Assembly: GCA_016871495.1 (NCBI GenBank)
Contig: VHDF01000034.1
Coordinates: forward strand, 1-47,308
DNA length: 47,308 nt
Origin: Verrucomicrobiota bacterium
GTDB taxonomy: Bacteria > Verrucomicrobiota > Verrucomicrobiia > Limisphaerales > VHDF01
Direction: 5' to 3'
Position 1 is the stretch's first letter, and every line of letters begins with the position of its first letter. Position numbers and translations under genes: made by a program. This document shows, piece after piece, positions 35,340 to 43,859 of the stretch. The notes beneath the pieces are model-generated. The model searched no databases, was not told where the DNA came from, and was given only the letters and a program-made list of their open reading frames with translations.

Positions 35340-37559
35340 ATGGCTCTGACCCTGAAGTGGGACTTCCCTGAGTCGCTCGATTTCACAAAAGGGGTTGGTT
35401 TGAGGGCCGTGGGCCTGGCGGGGCTATTCCTGGCCTTCTTGCTTTCCGTGGTTCCGGCGAGAGCCGCCCTGCAGTTCGATGTTTTTGCGGGCTTCGATGA
35501 GACCATTCGTGAAGGGAATTGGTTCCCGGTTACTTTTGAAGTCTTCAATGATGGACCGTCGTTCAATGGGGTCATCGAACTTTCGACCGCGCAAGCCGGC
35601 TCGGGACAAATGCGCCGGGTGGCGGTGGAATTGCCGACCCATACCCGCAAGCGTATCGTGCTCCCGGTTTTTGCACAGACACGGTTTGCGACGTGGGACG
35701 CCAAGCTGCTGGACGAAAAGGGCAATCTGCGCGCCGACAAGCAGAACATCCGCTTTTCGAGCACGGTTGCGGCTTCGGCTTTTCTGCTTGCCTCCATTCC
35801 CAAGTCGCAGGCGGGGCGCCCGGAATTTCCCCGCACTTCCGCCAACGCGAATGATCGCGCGCCGAAGGTGGTCCGCCTCACGAGCGAGTTGTTGCCGGAC
35901 AACCCCATTGCGATGGAAGGCATGCAGGCCCTCTACCTGTCGAGTGAGCGGGCGGTGGAGCTGAAGGGACCGCAAATCACGGCGCTCATCACGTGGGTTT
36001 ACCAAGGAGGACATCTCCTGGTCGGGGTCGAGCAAGCGGCGGATCTGGCGGGCGCGCCCTGGCTGCGCCGGTTATCTCCGATCGAGCTCACGGGCTCCGC
36101 CCAATTGAAGCTCAACGGCGCTTTCAATCAATGGATCCGCTCCTCATCCTCTGATCCTGAACCGCGGATCCGCCGTTCGGGTGGTCGCCGCAATGCGCTG
36201 GGGCCTGAGGGTGATTCCGCCTTTTCGGGCCCTGCTCCCAGTGCTGACGATGGGGCGTTCGACCTAGCGGAGATGGTTTTTGCAACCGGGAAGCTCGCGG
36301 CCGGCGCGGAAAGCCTGCTGGCGGTGGGAAGTGTTCCCGCGGTGGCGAGCATGACCCGCGGACGCGGATCGGTGACCCTTTTGACGTTCAGTCCGGACCG
36401 CGAGCCCTTTCGGTCCTGGTCCAATCGCGCCTGGTTTTGGAGCCGGCTCGCCGGGTTGCCGAATGCTTTGTTTGCCCCCAACGCCGAGCATGTTTTCGCG
36501 AGCCTGGGTTCGGACGGCATCTTCGGCGCCATGCTCGACAGCCGTCAGGTGCGCAAGCTGCCTGTGGAGTGGCTGCTTTTGCTGCTCGTGGTGTATCTGG
36601 TGGTGATCGGACCGTTGGATCAGTATTGGTTGAAAAAGATCAACAAGCAGATGTGGACGTGGGTGACCTTTCCCGCCTACGTCGCGTTCTTTTCCGTTCT
36701 GATTTATTTCATTGCCGCCAAGCTGCGTGCGGGCGACATGGAGTTCAACGAGCTTCACGTGGTGGATGCGGTGCCGCACGGTGAGAAGTCGGACCTGCGC
36801 GGGCGTTCCTTTGCGTCGCTTTATTCCCCGGTGAACGCGCAGTATCCGGTCTCGGCGACCAACCACGGATTCGCCTCGGTGCGGGGAGAGTTTCATGGCG
36901 GGTGGGGTGGTGGCGCGGATAGTTCGCGTTTGACCCTGGATCAGAAGGGCAACGGCAGCATGGCGGAGCTCTTCGTGCCGGTTTGGACCAGCCAACTCTT
37001 TGTGCATGAGTGGCTGCTTCAGGGCGAATCCGCGGTCACGATCCATTTTGCCGGGACAGTGAATTCGAAGGTCGCGACCCTCCGCAATCACCTGAACCGG
37101 GATCTTGCGCATGTGCATGTTGCCTATCGCGGCCGCCTCTATACGGTGGGCGCGGTGCCGGCCGGTCAGTCGGTGACTACGACGCTGGGTGCCCAGTCAG
37201 GTCAGTCGCTGGTGGATTTCGTGTCGCAGAATGGCGGCGTTTTTCCAGGCGTGGTGCAAGGGCGGCGGCAGGCGTTCGGACGCGAGTCGGCCCGTCTCGA
37301 CAGCAATCCCCAGCCTGTGATTGCCGCTTCTTTTGGCCGGTCGCTCGAGTCTGGCGCTGGAGGCCAGCAATTCGGAGGAACCGGGGGATTTGTTTTCCCG
37401 GAAGGATTTGAACTTACGGATGACGTTGCCCGGGGGGACGCCGTGGTCTTCGCCTGGGTGCCCGATTACTCTCCGGTGGAGAAGATCCACCGCTTTGAAC
37501 CGAAGCGTTCCCAACGAAACACGATGTTCCGCATGATCATTTCCACGGGCGAGCCCTGA
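35340..37559 (+). CDS. Membrane-anchored accessory protein of ABC-2 cluster
   Basis: A 739-residue protein with an N-terminal signal or membrane segment (about residues 22-43), a roughly 370-residue exported domain, two adjacent membrane helices (WLLLLLVVYLVVIGPL, about 411-426, and VAFFSVLIYFIAAKL, about 447-461) and a 270-residue exported C-terminal domain. The stretch ALITWVYQGGHLLVGVE, followed by VASMTRGRGSVTLLTFSPD, resembles the glutamine-amidotransferase-like fold seen in GldG-like and DUF4350/DUF4159 proteins found beside ABC-2 transporters. No catalytic cysteine is obvious. The start at 35340 is tentative; ATG 35310 is also in frame. It ends 7 bp before the ATPase gene, so it is likely part of the transporter. 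Confidence 0.7.
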   Translation: MALTLKWDFPESLDFTKGVGLRAVGLAGLFLAFLLSVVPARAALQFDVFAGFDETIREGNWFPVTFEVFNDGPSFNGVIELSTAQAGSGQMRRVAVELPTHTRKRIVLPVFAQTRFATWDAKLLDEKGNLRADKQNIRFSSTVAASAFLLASIPKSQAGRPEFPRTSANANDRAPKVVRLTSELLPDNPIAMEGMQALYLSSERAVELKGPQITALITWVYQGGHLLVGVEQAADLAGAPWLRRLSPIELTGSAQLKLNGAFNQWIRSSSSDPEPRIRRSGGRRNALGPEGDSAFSGPAPSADDGAFDLAEMVFATGKLAAGAESLLAVGSVPAVASMTRGRGSVTLLTFSPDREPFRSWSNRAWFWSRLAGLPNALFAPNAEHVFASLGSDGIFGAMLDSRQVRKLPVEWLLLLLVVYLVVIGPLDQYWLKKINKQMWTWVTFPAYVAFFSVLIYFIAAKLRAGDMEFNELHVVDAVPHGEKSDLRGRSFASLYSPVNAQYPVSATNHGFASVRGEFHGGWGGGADSSRLTLDQKGNGSMAELFVPVWTSQLFVHEWLLQGESAVTIHFAGTVNSKVATLRNHLNRDLAHVHVAYRGRLYTVGAVPAGQSVTTTLGAQSGQSLVDFVSQNGGVFPGVVQGRRQAFGRESARLDSNPQPVIAASFGRSLESGAGGQQFGGTGGFVFPEGFELTDDVARGDAVVFAWVPDYSPVEKIHRFEPKRSQRNTMFRMIISTGEP

Positions 37560-37566
37560 ACCGACT

Positions 37567-38529
37567 ATGCCGAATTTGAAAGACATTCCCCTGGACAAAC
37601 CCGCCGTGCAAACGTTCGGCTTGAGCCGGACGTATGGGGCGATGACCGCGTTGAGCGCCCTGGATCTCACGGTGAATCGAGGCGATTTGTTTGGATTCAT
37701 CGGGTCCAACGGCGCGGGCAAGACCACCACGCTTCGCATCCTCGCCACTTTTCTGGCTCCCTCCAGCGGACGCGCCGAGGTGTTCGGCCACGACGTGGTG
37801 CGGGACGCGGACTCGGTGCGGCACGTGATCGGATACATGCCCGACTTTTTTGGCGTCTACAAGGACATGGAGGTCACAGAATACCTGGATTTCTTCGGAG
37901 CCTGTTACCGGATTCCTTCCGCCCAGCGCGAAAAGACCGTCAAGGATGTCCTCGAATTGGTGGGGCTCAGCGAGAAGCAAGGCGCGCTCATCGGGGCTCT
38001 CAGCCGCGGCATGCAGCAGCGGCTTGGGCTGGCCCGGGTGCTGATTCATGATCCCCATCTGTTGTTGCTCGATGAGCCGGCCAGCGGCCTTGATCCGCGG
38101 GCGCGCATCGAGATGATGGCCATCTTGCAAGAACTTCAACGGCTGGGGAAAACCATCATCATCAGCTCGCATATTCTCAGCGAACTGCAGACGCTCTGCA
38201 ATCGCGTGGCCATCATCGAGAAGGGCAAGCTCATCTACGCGGGGCCGGTGCAGCGGGTCCGCGATCAAATGGCGCCCGGCAGGATGGTCTGGGTGAAGGT
38301 ATCGAGCGAGGCGGAGCAGGCCCTGGCCTTGCTGAAAGGTTGCCCGGACGTGACGGCGACGGAGACCGTGGACGGCCGGATCAAGGTGACTTTGAAGGAT
38401 CACGACACCGATCCGAGTTGTGTCGCGGAATCCCTGGTCAGGGGAGGGGCGCGTTTGATCGAGCTGCGAGAGGACGAGCTGGGTCTTGAGGAAGTGTTCC
38501 TTCGCGTCACCCGGGGCGAAACGCAATAG
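37567..38529 (+). CDS. ABC-2 type transporter ATPase subunit
   Basis: A 320-residue ATP-binding protein of the drug/lipid/polysaccharide-export (CcmA/NatA-like) class. Walker A GSNGAGKTT is near residue 46, the Q-loop region GYMPDFFGVY follows, then signature LSRGMQQRLGLA near 145, Walker B LLLLDEPASGLDP near 166, and the switch His in IISSHILSEL. The Q-loop position shows MPD rather than the common Q, as often seen in this class. A C-terminal 90-residue extension follows. It is the only ATPase in the cluster and should energise the three downstream permeases. Confidence 0.92.
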   Translation: MPNLKDIPLDKPAVQTFGLSRTYGAMTALSALDLTVNRGDLFGFIGSNGAGKTTTLRILATFLAPSSGRAEVFGHDVVRDADSVRHVIGYMPDFFGVYKDMEVTEYLDFFGACYRIPSAQREKTVKDVLELVGLSEKQGALIGALSRGMQQRLGLARVLIHDPHLLLLDEPASGLDPRARIEMMAILQELQRLGKTIIISSHILSELQTLCNRVAIIEKGKLIYAGPVQRVRDQMAPGRMVWVKVSSEAEQALALLKGCPDVTATETVDGRIKVTLKDHDTDPSCVAESLVRGGARLIELREDELGLEEVFLRVTRGETQ

Positions 38530-38797: not shown

Positions 38798-40468
38798 ATG
38801 CGCGCCCTGCCTGTCGTCGATCGCGAGCTGAGAATTGCCGCCCGGAGACGCGGGACGTATTGGTCCCGTTCGGGTGCCGCTCTCATTTCCACAGGCATTC
38901 TGGCCTTCATCGCGCTGAGTGGCCTTGTGAACGGGGTGCCCCTCGAGCTTCAAGGCCGGGAGATTTTTCGGGCCGTCAGCGGATTCGCGTTTCTTTACGC
39001 GCTCTTGTCGGGACTGCGTTGCACGGCCGACTCGTTGAGCGAGGAAAAGCGGGAAGGAACCCTGGGGTTGCTCTTCCTGACCGATCTGAGGGGTTACGAC
39101 ATCGTGCTTGGGAAATTCGTGGCGGGATCCATCGATGCGGCGCTGGGTCTGGCCAGCATGATCCCGGTAATGGCGGTCGCCTGGTTACTTGGGGGCGTTT
39201 CCAAAACCGAGTTCGGTCTCATGACCATCACCTTGATCAACACGTTGTTTTGGTCGCTGGCGGCCGGACTTTTTGTGTCCGCGATCAACCGGCAGGAGCG
39301 CAAAGCGATGGCCGGGACGGTCCTCATTCTGCTCCTGCAATCCCTGGGTCCGTTTACCCTCGGCTACTATTACCTCGCGCTCAGCGAGCAGATGGGCCGG
39401 ACTTACTCCATCGACTGGATGTTCCTCACGCCCAGTCCTTATCAGAGTTACCGGCTGACTCGGGACACGATGACGGGTTGGACGGGGCAGATGTATTGGG
39501 CCACGACTGGATTTGTGCATGGGACGGCCTGGCTCTTTTTGACGGTGGCGGCTTTTTATGCTCCTTCCTCGGGCCGATTGCGCCCCGCTTCGGCGTCCAT
39601 GGAGCGCCTGCAAGCGTTGTGGAAAGACTGGTCGCAGGGGTCCGGCGCCTTGCGCAGGCTGCATCGCTCGCGATTGCTGGAGATGAATCCCTACGCCTGG
39701 CTGGTTTGCCGCGACCGGCTTAAACTCACCCTGGTGTGGATGATGCTGGGAGGGCTCGGTGTCGTGTGGTTTTGGGCCTATCTGCGTTTTCCGGAGATGA
39801 TGCTCGATGATGACGCGGTGCTGCTGGTCATGTTCATTGCGCATGGCTTGGTGAAGTGGTGGGTCTGTTCCGAGGTGTGCAGCCGGTCGGTGGAGGACCA
39901 GCGCAGCGGTGCGCTTGAACTTTTGCTCTGCACCCCGGTCTCCAGCCGGTCGATGGTGTCGGGCATGGGATGGGCGGTGATCCGCCAGTTTGGTGTTCCC
40001 CTGGCCGTGATCGTGGTTTGCGATGTGGTCCTTCTTTATTTCATGCAACTGCGCGGCGGCGGCGCCTACACGTTTCTTTACTTCGGCTGGAGTCCCGCTC
40101 CCTTTTGCCGGGCGGCGTTGTTTCTCCTCCCGCTTGACCTTTGGGCGATCACCTGGGTGGCCATGCGCAAGGGGTTCCTTTCGAAATCCGTCAATCGGGC
40201 CATGGGCATCACGGTGTTTCGAATTCTGTTCTTGCCGTATGTCATCAGCCTGGTGGTGTATTACGCAGTTTTTGCGGGCTTGCATGGATCGCTTTTCGGC
40301 CGGCGCAGCTGGGTCATTTTGTGGAGCCAGACCGGCCCGTATGATGTTTGGGTGATTACCTGCGCGCTGGTCGCGTTGATTTCGGGATGGCGGGCACGGA
40401 GGGGATTGGCTTCCGTGATTCACCAAGCATCTCTGGCCCGCTACGATCGTCTCAAGGAACAGGCATGA
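38798..40468 (+). CDS. ABC-2 permease paralogue 1
   Basis: A 556-residue multi-spanning membrane protein. It begins MRALPVVDRELRIAARRRGTYW, shared in form with the next two genes. The N-terminal half carries EEKREGTLGLLFLTDLRGYD (about residues 82-101) and the C-terminal half DQRSGALELLLCTPVSSRS (about 367-385). These are two copies of the cytoplasmic motif that ABC-2 permeases usually have once, so the protein looks like a fused tandem pair of six-helix units joined by a charged linker (around residues 260-290). The substrate is unknown. Its stop overlaps the next permease start (ATGA at 40465-40468). Confidence 0.85.
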   Translation: MRALPVVDRELRIAARRRGTYWSRSGAALISTGILAFIALSGLVNGVPLELQGREIFRAVSGFAFLYALLSGLRCTADSLSEEKREGTLGLLFLTDLRGYDIVLGKFVAGSIDAALGLASMIPVMAVAWLLGGVSKTEFGLMTITLINTLFWSLAAGLFVSAINRQERKAMAGTVLILLLQSLGPFTLGYYYLALSEQMGRTYSIDWMFLTPSPYQSYRLTRDTMTGWTGQMYWATTGFVHGTAWLFLTVAAFYAPSSGRLRPASASMERLQALWKDWSQGSGALRRLHRSRLLEMNPYAWLVCRDRLKLTLVWMMLGGLGVVWFWAYLRFPEMMLDDDAVLLVMFIAHGLVKWWVCSEVCSRSVEDQRSGALELLLCTPVSSRSMVSGMGWAVIRQFGVPLAVIVVCDVVLLYFMQLRGGGAYTFLYFGWSPAPFCRAALFLLPLDLWAITWVAMRKGFLSKSVNRAMGITVFRILFLPYVISLVVYYAVFAGLHGSLFGRRSWVILWSQTGPYDVWVITCALVALISGWRARRGLASVIHQASLARYDRLKEQA

Positions 40469-42168
40469 CCGTTCTCCCCATCGTCGAGCGCGAACTGAGG
40501 TTGATTTCCCGGCGGCGATCCACCTTTCAATTGCGGATAGGAGCGGCGGTGGTGGCCGCGCTGGGCTGCGCGTGGATTTTTGCGGGCATGGCTGACGGCA
40601 TGACGCCGGCTCGATTGGGACATTCCATGTTCGTTTTCCTCACCACGGTGTCCTTTCTGTATTGCCTCTTCGCCGGGGTCCATTCCACGGCCGACTGCCT
40701 GAGCCAGGAGAAGCGGGAGGGAACGCTTGGGCTGCTTTTTCTGACGGATCTTCGAGGGCATGACGTGGTGTTGGGCAAGTTGGCGTCCACATCGCTCACC
40801 CTCGCCTATGGTTTGCTGGCGTGTTTCCCGATCCTCTCCTTGCCCTTGTTGCTGGGCGGCATGAGCGCCGGCCAGTTTTGGAGAGTGGCACTGGCGTTGC
40901 TTTGCACCTTGTCCATGTCGCTTGCCGCAGGGATCTTCGCCTCGACGTACTCGTGGCAGGGCCGGCGGGCGGCCATGCTCGCGATGGGTTGGCTGCTCGT
41001 TTTGAGCACGGTGCCTCTCATGGCGATGGCGGCAACGTCGCCAGGGGCCAACCCGGTGTTTGAACCTCTCGGGTTCCTGCTGGCCTTGAGTCCGAGCTTC
41101 GCGACCATGGCGGCGTTCGACACATTCTATGCGAATTGGAGCACGTCTTACTGGATCGCTGTCGCGTCGCAATTGGGTTTGAGCGGAGCGGCCTTGCTTG
41201 CCGCCAGCCTCGCGGTTCCCCATCGGTGGCAGGACCGCCCGGAAACGGTTCGTTCCCAAAGCTGGCGTGAGCGTTGGAAAGCGTGGAAACTGGGCAACCA
41301 TCGGCAGCGGGCCGAGTTTCGCAGCAAACTCTTGGATCGAAACCCTTTCTTCTGGCTTTCCTCCCGCGAACGGCTGGGTCCGGCTTGGGTTTGGGGATAT
41401 TTGGGGCTGGTGGCCTGCGGGTGGGTCTGGGGAGCGTTGGCTGTGGGTGAAGATTGGTTTGATCCCGCGACCTATGTGACCACGGGTTTGTTGCTCTGTT
41501 TGTCGCTCAAGGTCTGGATTGGATCCGAGGCAGCGCGACGATTTGCGGACGATCGGGCGGCCGGGGCGCTCGAACTCTTGTTTTCAACTCCGATGACAGC
41601 TCGAGAAGTCATCCAGGGTCATTTCATGGCGATGAGGCGTCAATTCTTGGCGCCGGTCATTCTGACGACGTTGTTATGCGTCCTTTTCTGGACTGTTTCG
41701 GCGGCCACCGAAGCGGGCTCCGCAGGCTGGGGCTGGGAGGGTTTGATGATTGCCGGCTACCTGGCTTTGTTCCTGTTCGACACGCACACTCTGACTTGGA
41801 CCGGATTCTGGCAGGGGCTCGTGTCCAGGAGGACAAACTGGGCGGGTTTCTACACACTGTTCTTCGTGATGGTGGTGCCCACACTTCTTTTCATCCTCTT
41901 GAGTTTGGTGCTGGCTCTCATGAAATTCGTGTGGATGGTTTTGTTCAGCGGTCCGGCCTTGAGTTTCGGCGGATGGTTCATGCCGGTCGGATACTTTGCG
42001 ATTTGTTTTGCCACCAACGCCTGCTTGATCTCTGTCAGCCGCACCCGGTTACTGCGGAGGTTGCGGGAGATTGCGGCCCATGATTTCGGTTATGCGGTGC
42101 CGCCCATGGATCCGCCTGGGGAACGTCCAGCGGGGACTTCAGCAGCGGTGCCTCCCCGTCTCGTTTGA
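40465..42168 (+). CDS. ABC-2 permease paralogue 2
   Basis: A 567-residue membrane protein beginning MTVLPIVERELRLISRRRSTF. It contains QEKREGTLGLLFLTDLRGHD in the first half and DRAAGALELLFSTPMTARE in the second, the same duplicated pattern as its neighbours, with many hydrophobic helices and a basic linker (SQSWRERWKAWKLGNHRQR). ATG 40465 overlaps the upstream stop and aligns with the neighbours' N-termini; the open frame begins earlier without similarity. Its TGA overlaps a TTG that could start the third permease. Confidence 0.85.
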   Translation: MTVLPIVERELRLISRRRSTFQLRIGAAVVAALGCAWIFAGMADGMTPARLGHSMFVFLTTVSFLYCLFAGVHSTADCLSQEKREGTLGLLFLTDLRGHDVVLGKLASTSLTLAYGLLACFPILSLPLLLGGMSAGQFWRVALALLCTLSMSLAAGIFASTYSWQGRRAAMLAMGWLLVLSTVPLMAMAATSPGANPVFEPLGFLLALSPSFATMAAFDTFYANWSTSYWIAVASQLGLSGAALLAASLAVPHRWQDRPETVRSQSWRERWKAWKLGNHRQRAEFRSKLLDRNPFFWLSSRERLGPAWVWGYLGLVACGWVWGALAVGEDWFDPATYVTTGLLLCLSLKVWIGSEAARRFADDRAAGALELLFSTPMTAREVIQGHFMAMRRQFLAPVILTTLLCVLFWTVSAATEAGSAGWGWEGLMIAGYLALFLFDTHTLTWTGFWQGLVSRRTNWAGFYTLFFVMVVPTLLFILLSLVLALMKFVWMVLFSGPALSFGGWFMPVGYFAICFATNACLISVSRTRLLRRLREIAAHDFGYAVPPMDPPGERPAGTSAAVPPRLV

Positions 42169-42176
42169 GCCCCGCT

Positions 42177-43859
42177 ATGCAATCCTTGCCCATCGTCCAG
42201 CGTGAGTTGCTGGTTCTGGCCCGGAGGCGAGCAACTTACTGGAATCGGTTTTCGATGGGTCTCACGGTTTCGGGACTTTTGATCTGGATGATGACGGTCT
42301 TCATAAAGACCCAGCCCCCGGCGATGGTTGGCCGGCAGCTCTTCATGGTCATGGTCATGGTGCTTTTCGGATCGGCGCTCTTCTCGGGAGTTAAGAATGC
42401 CTCGGACAGTTTGTGCGCGGAAAAGCGGGAGGGAACACTTGGATTCCTCTTTCTCACGGACTTGAGCGGCTGGGATGTCGTCCTGGGCAAGTTGGCGGCT
42501 ACCGGCATGAACGCAGTTTACATGTTGCTGGCGAGTTGTCCCATTCTGGCGCTGATCAGTCTAATGGGGGGGATTGGCTTGGTCGAGATTGCCGGTTCCG
42601 CCGTGCTTTTGGCCAACACGCTGTTCCTCTCTCATTGCGTGGGGCTGCTCGTTTCCACCCTCCTGCGAAGCGAGAGAGCCTGCGCGTCCCTGACGGCGGG
42701 AATCATGCTGGCCCTTTGTGCTTATCCGGCTCTGATTGCAGCCGTCGTTTACCTTTTGACCGAAAAGTCCATGGATGCGCCGCCTTGGCCTTACTTGGCT
42801 CCCTGGTATCCTTTCACCAAAGTGGGAGGAGGCTTTATGACCGGGCTCAAAGCATGGGATCTGCTCACGAGCGTGCTCTGGACACAAGCCTTCGCCTGGA
42901 CCTGCCTCAGCCTTGCGGCTTGGCGTGCTCCTCGTTGCTGGCAGGAGTTCGGCACCCAGAAGGCTTCGAAAGAGGCCAAAGCGCGAACGGTTTCCGCATC
43001 CGGCTTTTTGCTTCGCGCCAAGCGCCTGGTTCCCAATCCCGTCTTTTGGCTGGCGATGCGCAAGTCGCACGGGCACTGGATTCTCTGGCTGATGCTGGCG
43101 ACGGCGGCTGGTATTTGGAGCTACGGAATTTACCGGTACGGACAGGACTGGCGCAATCCCCCTGCGTATGCCTTTACCGCGCTTGTGCTGCACTTGATTT
43201 TCAAACTTTGGGTCGCGAGCGAATCAGGAACCATGATTTACCGTGACCGGCAAAGCGGCGCTCTCGAACTGATCACCGGGACTTCTTTACCCCTCACGGC
43301 GATTATCCATGGCCAGCAGCGCGCGATTTGGAAACAGATGCGAGGCCCCCTGGCAGTTCTGCTCCTCTTCGATGCCTGGGTTGTCGTGGATGGAGTCCAT
43401 CTCCTTCGTAGGACATCCGAGGAAGTCACATTCTGGATTGCGTCTGCGGCGATCTTCCTCGGCACCTTCTTGCTGGATCTTGCCACACTGACCTGGGTGA
43501 GTCTCTGGACGAGCCTCAATGCCACGAAGGTGAATCAAGGGCCATCGAAGGCGTTTTTTGGGGTGGTGGGTTTGCCCGCCGGCACTTACATCGGCTTGTT
43601 CGTTCTCCTTGCGATGAACAATTTCTTTGGCTTCGGAACGGGAAGTGCCGATCGCGTTTGGATCCTTATTCTCTTTTTGCTGTGGCCTCTATCCTTCACG
43701 GTCTGGGATGTCATCCTCATTCGACGCTCCCGCCGATTGATCCTGCAACACTTGAGGGAGAAAGCCTCGGAGCGAGCGCCTGTTTCTTCGGACGTTCTCG
43801 AGCGGTTTTGGAAATGGTGCACGGCCCGGTCGGGGCCGGAGAAGCATGGTTGGTCGTGA
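42177..43859 (+). CDS. ABC-2 permease paralogue 3
   Basis: A 560-residue membrane protein beginning MQSLPIVQRELLVLARRRATYW. The first half contains AEKREGTLGFLFLTDLSGWD and the second DRQSGALELITGTSLPLTA; the latter has lost the usual TP of the motif, so the second half is the most diverged of the three. ATG 42177 aligns exactly with the other two N-termini; TTG 42165 overlapping the upstream stop is an alternative. It is the last gene of the cluster, converging on argB with a 14-bp gap and no visible terminator. Confidence 0.83.
   Translation: MQSLPIVQRELLVLARRRATYWNRFSMGLTVSGLLIWMMTVFIKTQPPAMVGRQLFMVMVMVLFGSALFSGVKNASDSLCAEKREGTLGFLFLTDLSGWDVVLGKLAATGMNAVYMLLASCPILALISLMGGIGLVEIAGSAVLLANTLFLSHCVGLLVSTLLRSERACASLTAGIMLALCAYPALIAAVVYLLTEKSMDAPPWPYLAPWYPFTKVGGGFMTGLKAWDLLTSVLWTQAFAWTCLSLAAWRAPRCWQEFGTQKASKEAKARTVSASGFLLRAKRLVPNPVFWLAMRKSHGHWILWLMLATAAGIWSYGIYRYGQDWRNPPAYAFTALVLHLIFKLWVASESGTMIYRDRQSGALELITGTSLPLTAIIHGQQRAIWKQMRGPLAVLLLFDAWVVVDGVHLLRRTSEEVTFWIASAAIFLGTFLLDLATLTWVSLWTSLNATKVNQGPSKAFFGVVGLPAGTYIGLFVLLAMNNFFGFGTGSADRVWILILFLLWPLSFTVWDVILIRRSRRLILQHLREKASERAPVSSDVLERFWKWCTARSGPEKHGWS

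Follow-up and report, generated by a model that had tools for sequence, protein, structure and literature searches.

A single-copy exported accessory protein and ABC ATPase in an order of Verrucomicrobiota, proposed to serve a dispersed family of ABC-2 type permeases

The window, i.e., the whole stretch of DNA analysed (47,308 nucleotides, contig VHDF01000034.1 of the Verrucomicrobiota assembly GCA_016871495.1), carries five genes on the plus strand, encoding an exported membrane-anchored accessory protein (ACC, bp 35340–37559), an ABC ATPase of 320 aa (bp 37567–38529) and three ABC-2 permeases (bp 38798–40468, 40468–42168 and 42165–43859). The ACC open reading frame starts with ATG and has 739 codons followed by a stop, and the ATG of the ATPase at 37567 leaves 7 bp between the two genes. 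The ATPase, assigned from its ORF and profile matches, had an intact Walker A (GSNGAGKT), signature (LSRGMQQ) and Walker B (LLLLDEP). About 270 bp separate it from permease 1, the start of permease 2 overlaps the stop of permease 1, and the permease gene junctions (bp 40465–42168) overlap by one to four bases, which suggests translational coupling. A chorismate synthase gene upstream of ACC and an acetylglutamate-kinase-like ORF downstream of permease 3, the latter recognized by sequence inspection, both lie on the opposite strand, and the five genes thus constitute one directional cluster. ACC itself was considered a real gene, since 31 relatives could be aligned with 44 invariant columns and matches (E ≤ 1e-3) were found in 194 of the 293 genomes sampled from the order.

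An AlphaFold model of ACC, built on the 31-sequence alignment (mean pLDDT 84.7, pTM 0.83), predicted a leader with a hydrophobic helix (residues 1–43, bp 35340–35468; helix at residues 21–37, with a hydrophobicity peak), followed by an exported part spanning residues 44 to about 400. The latter would comprise an N-terminal beta-sandwich of Ig/transglutaminase-like type (residues 44–147, bp 35469–35780; about 44–143 in the model; Z about 11 over 97–100 residues) and a GATase-1-like/GIFT-like domain (residues 148–374, bp 35781–36461), in which WVYQGGHLLVGVE and RGRGSVTLLTFSPD begin at residues 219 and 340, respectively. A predicted transmembrane hairpin of two adjacent helices, 409–434 and 437–463 (bp 36564–36728), leads to an exported tail of about 270 residues (residues 465–739, bp 36732–37556). 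The first-pass annotation had described a 739-residue protein with a signal, an exported domain, two adjacent helices and a second exported domain directly ahead of the ATPase gene, and both the ORF and the model agreed with it.

Fold search with the predicted model (VIA-align) placed residues 148–373 on structures of the GATase-1/GIFT type, as had been supposed from the sequence: 2gk3 (Z 15.7, 185 residues, rmsd 3.2), 3soz (Z 15.5), the Planctomyces GATase1-like protein 3rht (Z 13.9) and the N-terminal domain of IFT52 (5fmr, Z 12.0) were matched, with ThuA-like proteins also among the matches, and a resemblance to the GH42 middle domain was noticed as well. The predicted structure of these residues is therefore described here as GATase-1-like/GIFT. 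ACC contains no cysteine, nor is any conserved across the 31 relatives, so that the nucleophilic cysteine of active class I glutamine amidotransferases is missing; this argues against amidotransferase chemistry, and ACC is probably non-enzymatic. Processing of an exported substrate by the tail, at least of the amidotransferase type, as had been suggested earlier, is for the same reason unlikely; the tail may still capture a substrate.

The tail modelled alone (pLDDT 85) is predicted to form a double beta-sandwich resembling the mu-homology domain. The best 50 matches listed for this predicted model were all mu-homology domains of clathrin and COPI adaptors (Z 9.2–11.1), the top one having a Z of 11.1 over 181 residues; in total, 73 chains were matched at Z ≥ 8 and one further chain at Z 5–8. 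A profile search against PDB gave no sequence support for mu-homology in the tail, and the likeness is thus one of fold only; for the whole protein, single-sequence and profile searches against PDB likewise returned nothing significant. The tail had been pointed out as a feature unlike GldG; its presence was confirmed, but it is not peculiar to this ACC, as all aligned relatives carry it and residues also remain beyond the transmembrane pair in relatives from other classes. The most conserved part of ACC was the hairpin, holding 17 of the 44 invariant residues versus 3.3 expected (p 8.5e-10), compared with 9 in the 227 residues of the GATase-like part. This concentration of invariant residues points to a docking function for the hairpin.

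As a single protein, ACC matched no Pfam family, no NCBIfam family at E ≤ 1 (GldG-type model included) and not PF09822 at E ≤ 1, and only one of the 31 relatives gave a PF09822 hit (E 0.089). An ABC ATPase and ABC-2 permeases share its cluster, which is the genomic context of GldG/ABC_transp_aux proteins. Two PF09822 (GldG-type) proteins above the cut-off were found elsewhere in the source genome, each adjoining ABC-2 permeases, and their coexistence with ACC indicates that ACC belongs to a separate system. Membership of ACC in GldG was rejected upon failure of the PF09822 and NCBIfam profiles. The DUF4350-type link made by the first-pass annotation fared better: weak similarity to DUF4350 (PF14258) was detected in 29 of the 31 relatives (best E 2e-5), with no match in ACC itself and a score below the Pfam cut-off (17.2 bits versus 30.4 in one distant relative), and weak similarity to DUF7408, for which our literature search returned nothing, was detected in 15 of the 31. 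Judging from these profile similarities, ACC can be regarded as a distant DUF4350/DUF7408 relative.

Strong ACC matches were present in 165 of the 293 genomes, the line between strong and weak being drawn by hand from E-values. In an alignment search of 387 genomes from across the phylum, all ACC matches outside the source genome were weak, and no relatives were found on plasmids or viral contigs. Where coordinates of both genes were listed, ACC was immediately followed by the ATPase in 132 of 137 genomes, both lying on the same contig and strand (median aligned gap, 76 bp), which bears out the earlier view that ACC is joined to the ABC cluster; in the remaining 5 the two were on separate contigs, with several of the matches at a contig edge. 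At E ≤ 1e-75 the ATPase was single-copy in nearly all genomes of the order. In the fetched regions of the order its identity was 68–84%, versus 33–47% for ACC, and chorismate synthase of the same genomes showed 71–79%; by this measure the ATPase and chorismate synthase appear to be conserved to about the same degree. ACC and the ATPase make up one single-copy module across this order of Verrucomicrobiota.

The permeases, assigned to one family by profiles and comparison of their halves, are each about 550 residues long and contain two ABC-2 halves per chain (hhalign of the halves, 82% probability, E 1e-5), with motifs of the coupling-helix type (EKREGTLGLLFLTDL / DRxSGALELLLxTPL) in both halves. 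The number beside the ATPase varied from none to several by genome, and a triple-permease locus was rejected as a unit; the constant partner of ACC homologues is the ATPase rather than the triple-permease locus with which a check of the first-pass annotation was concerned. The homologues nevertheless did not lie mainly away from ABC genes, and a GATase-like fold was predicted, both in keeping with that annotation. Nine of 20 fetched regions of the order had no detectable family permease beside the ATPase (tblastn, with ORF and transmembrane inspection of eight), and the genomes of these regions hold family permeases elsewhere, those fetched being without a nearby ATPase. Permease matches numbered 2–31 per genome in 18 of the 18 genomes tested, the high numbers being upper values because fragments were scored separately. 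Nineteen fetched regions in which permeases were clearly matched contained no ATPase; their flanks were mostly at least 5 kb and shorter at contig ends. Among the 293 genomes, ACC and a permease occurred together in 157 and neither in 116, counts that are uncorrected for phylogeny and inflated by shared ancestry. Eight genomes had a strong ACC match and no permease at E ≤ 1e-30, permease presence being a lower bound with likely false negatives, as no more than about four candidates per genome were scored.

The genes adjoining the dispersed permeases were heterogeneous. It was noticed that two dispersed permeases of the source genome (L093:5127-8144 on G000:C28 and L094:6495-9656 on G000:C54) are extended at the C-terminus by about 450 residues that match no Pfam family, and that permeases of other genomes repeatedly show open frames of about 1000 aa. 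In two genomes (L096:4567-8364 on G000:C33 and L097:5757-9981 on G044:C203) a family permease adjoins a long exported protein, which in L097 is a tail-specific protease (S41) and in L096 is similar to it in start and length. One single-contig genome (L109 and L111, G071:C1) had 31 permease-family matches, many of them partial and clustered, which suggests local expansion and decay.

Of 10 distant ACC relatives from other classes, 8 stood in a row with an ATPase and a permease of 10–13 transmembrane helices; the exceptions were one without a nearby ATPase (L124) and one cut by a contig end (L125). In one region from outside the order (L118:5848-11781), genes for a MoxR-type ATPase, DUF58, BatA/vWA, an ACC-like protein, an ABC ATPase and two permeases follow in a row. 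It is likely that the ACC-ATPase-permease row represents an ancestral operon, and the simplest history would be that, from such an operon, the permeases multiplied and dispersed within the order while the motor stayed single. As a control, other ABC-2-type ATPases of the source genome were inspected: those at C42, C21, C52 and C112 lie directly beside multi-transmembrane proteins, and that at C27 adjoins, by coordinates, an ABC-2 permease and a PF09822 protein.

We propose that ACC is a non-catalytic periplasmic subunit of an ABC-2 machine and that the ACC-ATPase module most likely energises the dispersed permeases too, a reading to which we give a probability of roughly 0.6. It builds directly on gene order, copy numbers, predicted folds, the absence of cysteine and the scattered permeases without an adjoining ATPase, and it further supposes hairpin docking, sharing of the motor, a direction of transport and a cargo. 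The hairpin, given its conservation, would dock onto the permeases, and the beta-sandwich, the cysteine-free GATase/GIFT-like domain and the mu-homology-like tail would together form an extensive surface on the outward side of the membrane to which a cargo, perhaps a polypeptide, a glycan or a lipid-linked sugar, could bind. Each permease has, within a single chain, the coupling motifs of the two half-transporters and might associate with ACC and an ATPase dimer, such that the single-copy module would power the neighbouring permeases and the whole dispersed double-length family. Since the pair is single-copy while several permeases are scattered without an adjoining ATPase, the genomic pattern is that of a multitask ABC ATPase, and one motor may serve many channels. 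That one ATPase and one exported adaptor, GIFT-like and mu-homology-like, power the expanded single-chain permeases with the adaptor as their common cargo receptor is put forward more tentatively.

The main rival to a shared motor is an ordinary operon, in which ACC, the ATPase and its three neighbouring permeases would be a self-contained exporter and the dispersed permeases are paralogues working on other ATPases, or relics. Normal ABC logic and the position of permeases directly after the ATPase, in the window as well as in other classes, speak for such an operon, and another ATPase of the source genome, which has 17 ATPase matches at E ≤ 1e-20, could act in trans; however, it does not readily accommodate the nine regions lacking a permease beside the ATPase in genomes that hold permeases elsewhere without one nearby, and we consider it unlikely. 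The frequent lack of an adjacent permease would instead be expected if ACC and the ATPase were a permease-free mechanotransmission pair of the FtsEX/MacB-like kind, the hairpin, which is the conserved core of ACC, taking up the ATP-driven stroke so as to move the exported domains. Permeases nevertheless co-occur with ACC in 157 of the 165 genomes and, in other classes, stand behind the ATPase, which makes such a pair improbable.

An active enzyme of amidotransferase or glycosidase type, processing an exported substrate, could be imagined from the GATase-1 fold and the GH42 resemblance, but the lack of cysteine, upon which the enzyme reading was rejected, and the few invariant residues in the exported domains leave it very little probability.

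With regard to known systems, the proposed shared motor has a counterpart in MsmX, an established case of one ATPase for several transporters, which serves type I importers (PMC7658222); that system comprises sugar importers with binding proteins, whereas the permeases here are of ABC-2 type and come with an accessory protein of their own, sharing being suggested by gene pattern. A limited literature search found no shared ATPase for an ABC-2 type family and no literature on ABC-2 systems of this order. GldA-GldF-GldG (PF09822, TIGR03518, TIGR03522) is similar in placing an exported, membrane-anchored accessory protein of GATase/GIFT type next to the ATPase and permease of an ABC-2 system; the best score of the ACC-partner ATPase was to GldA, below the cut-off, and two of the window permeases matched GldF weakly. 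However, the permeases here are double-length, ACC is matched by neither PF09822 nor any NCBIfam model, and its transmembrane pair lies mid-protein, followed by a long exported tail. In archaea, DUF4350 proteins have been connected with GldG and with operons that also encode vWA proteins and COG0714 AAA+ ATPases (PMC5898192). This predicted secretion complex (DUF4350/arCOG01314), like DUF7408, shares weak profile similarity with ACC relatives, and its vWA and COG0714 context resembles that of the other-class relative behind MoxR, DUF58 and BatA/vWA genes; it differs in having one C-terminal transmembrane helix instead of a mid-protein hairpin, and ACC is partnered by an ABC ATPase. GIFT domains, named for GldG and IFT52 and also found in the oligosaccharyltransferase subunit Wbp1, are proposed sugar binders (PMC10191852, PMC7226087); the GATase-like fold is shared with ACC, which has no sequence match to them and a bacterial, exported context, and a published study found no promising prokaryotic homologues of accessory oligosaccharyltransferase subunits.

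If the proposed sharing is true, deletion of a single gene would knock out many permeases at once in a large environmental group, and their cargo could then be approached experimentally. The mu-homology fold is known from eukaryotic cargo adaptors; should the ACC tail truly be mu-homology-like, it would provide a bacterial case of this fold.
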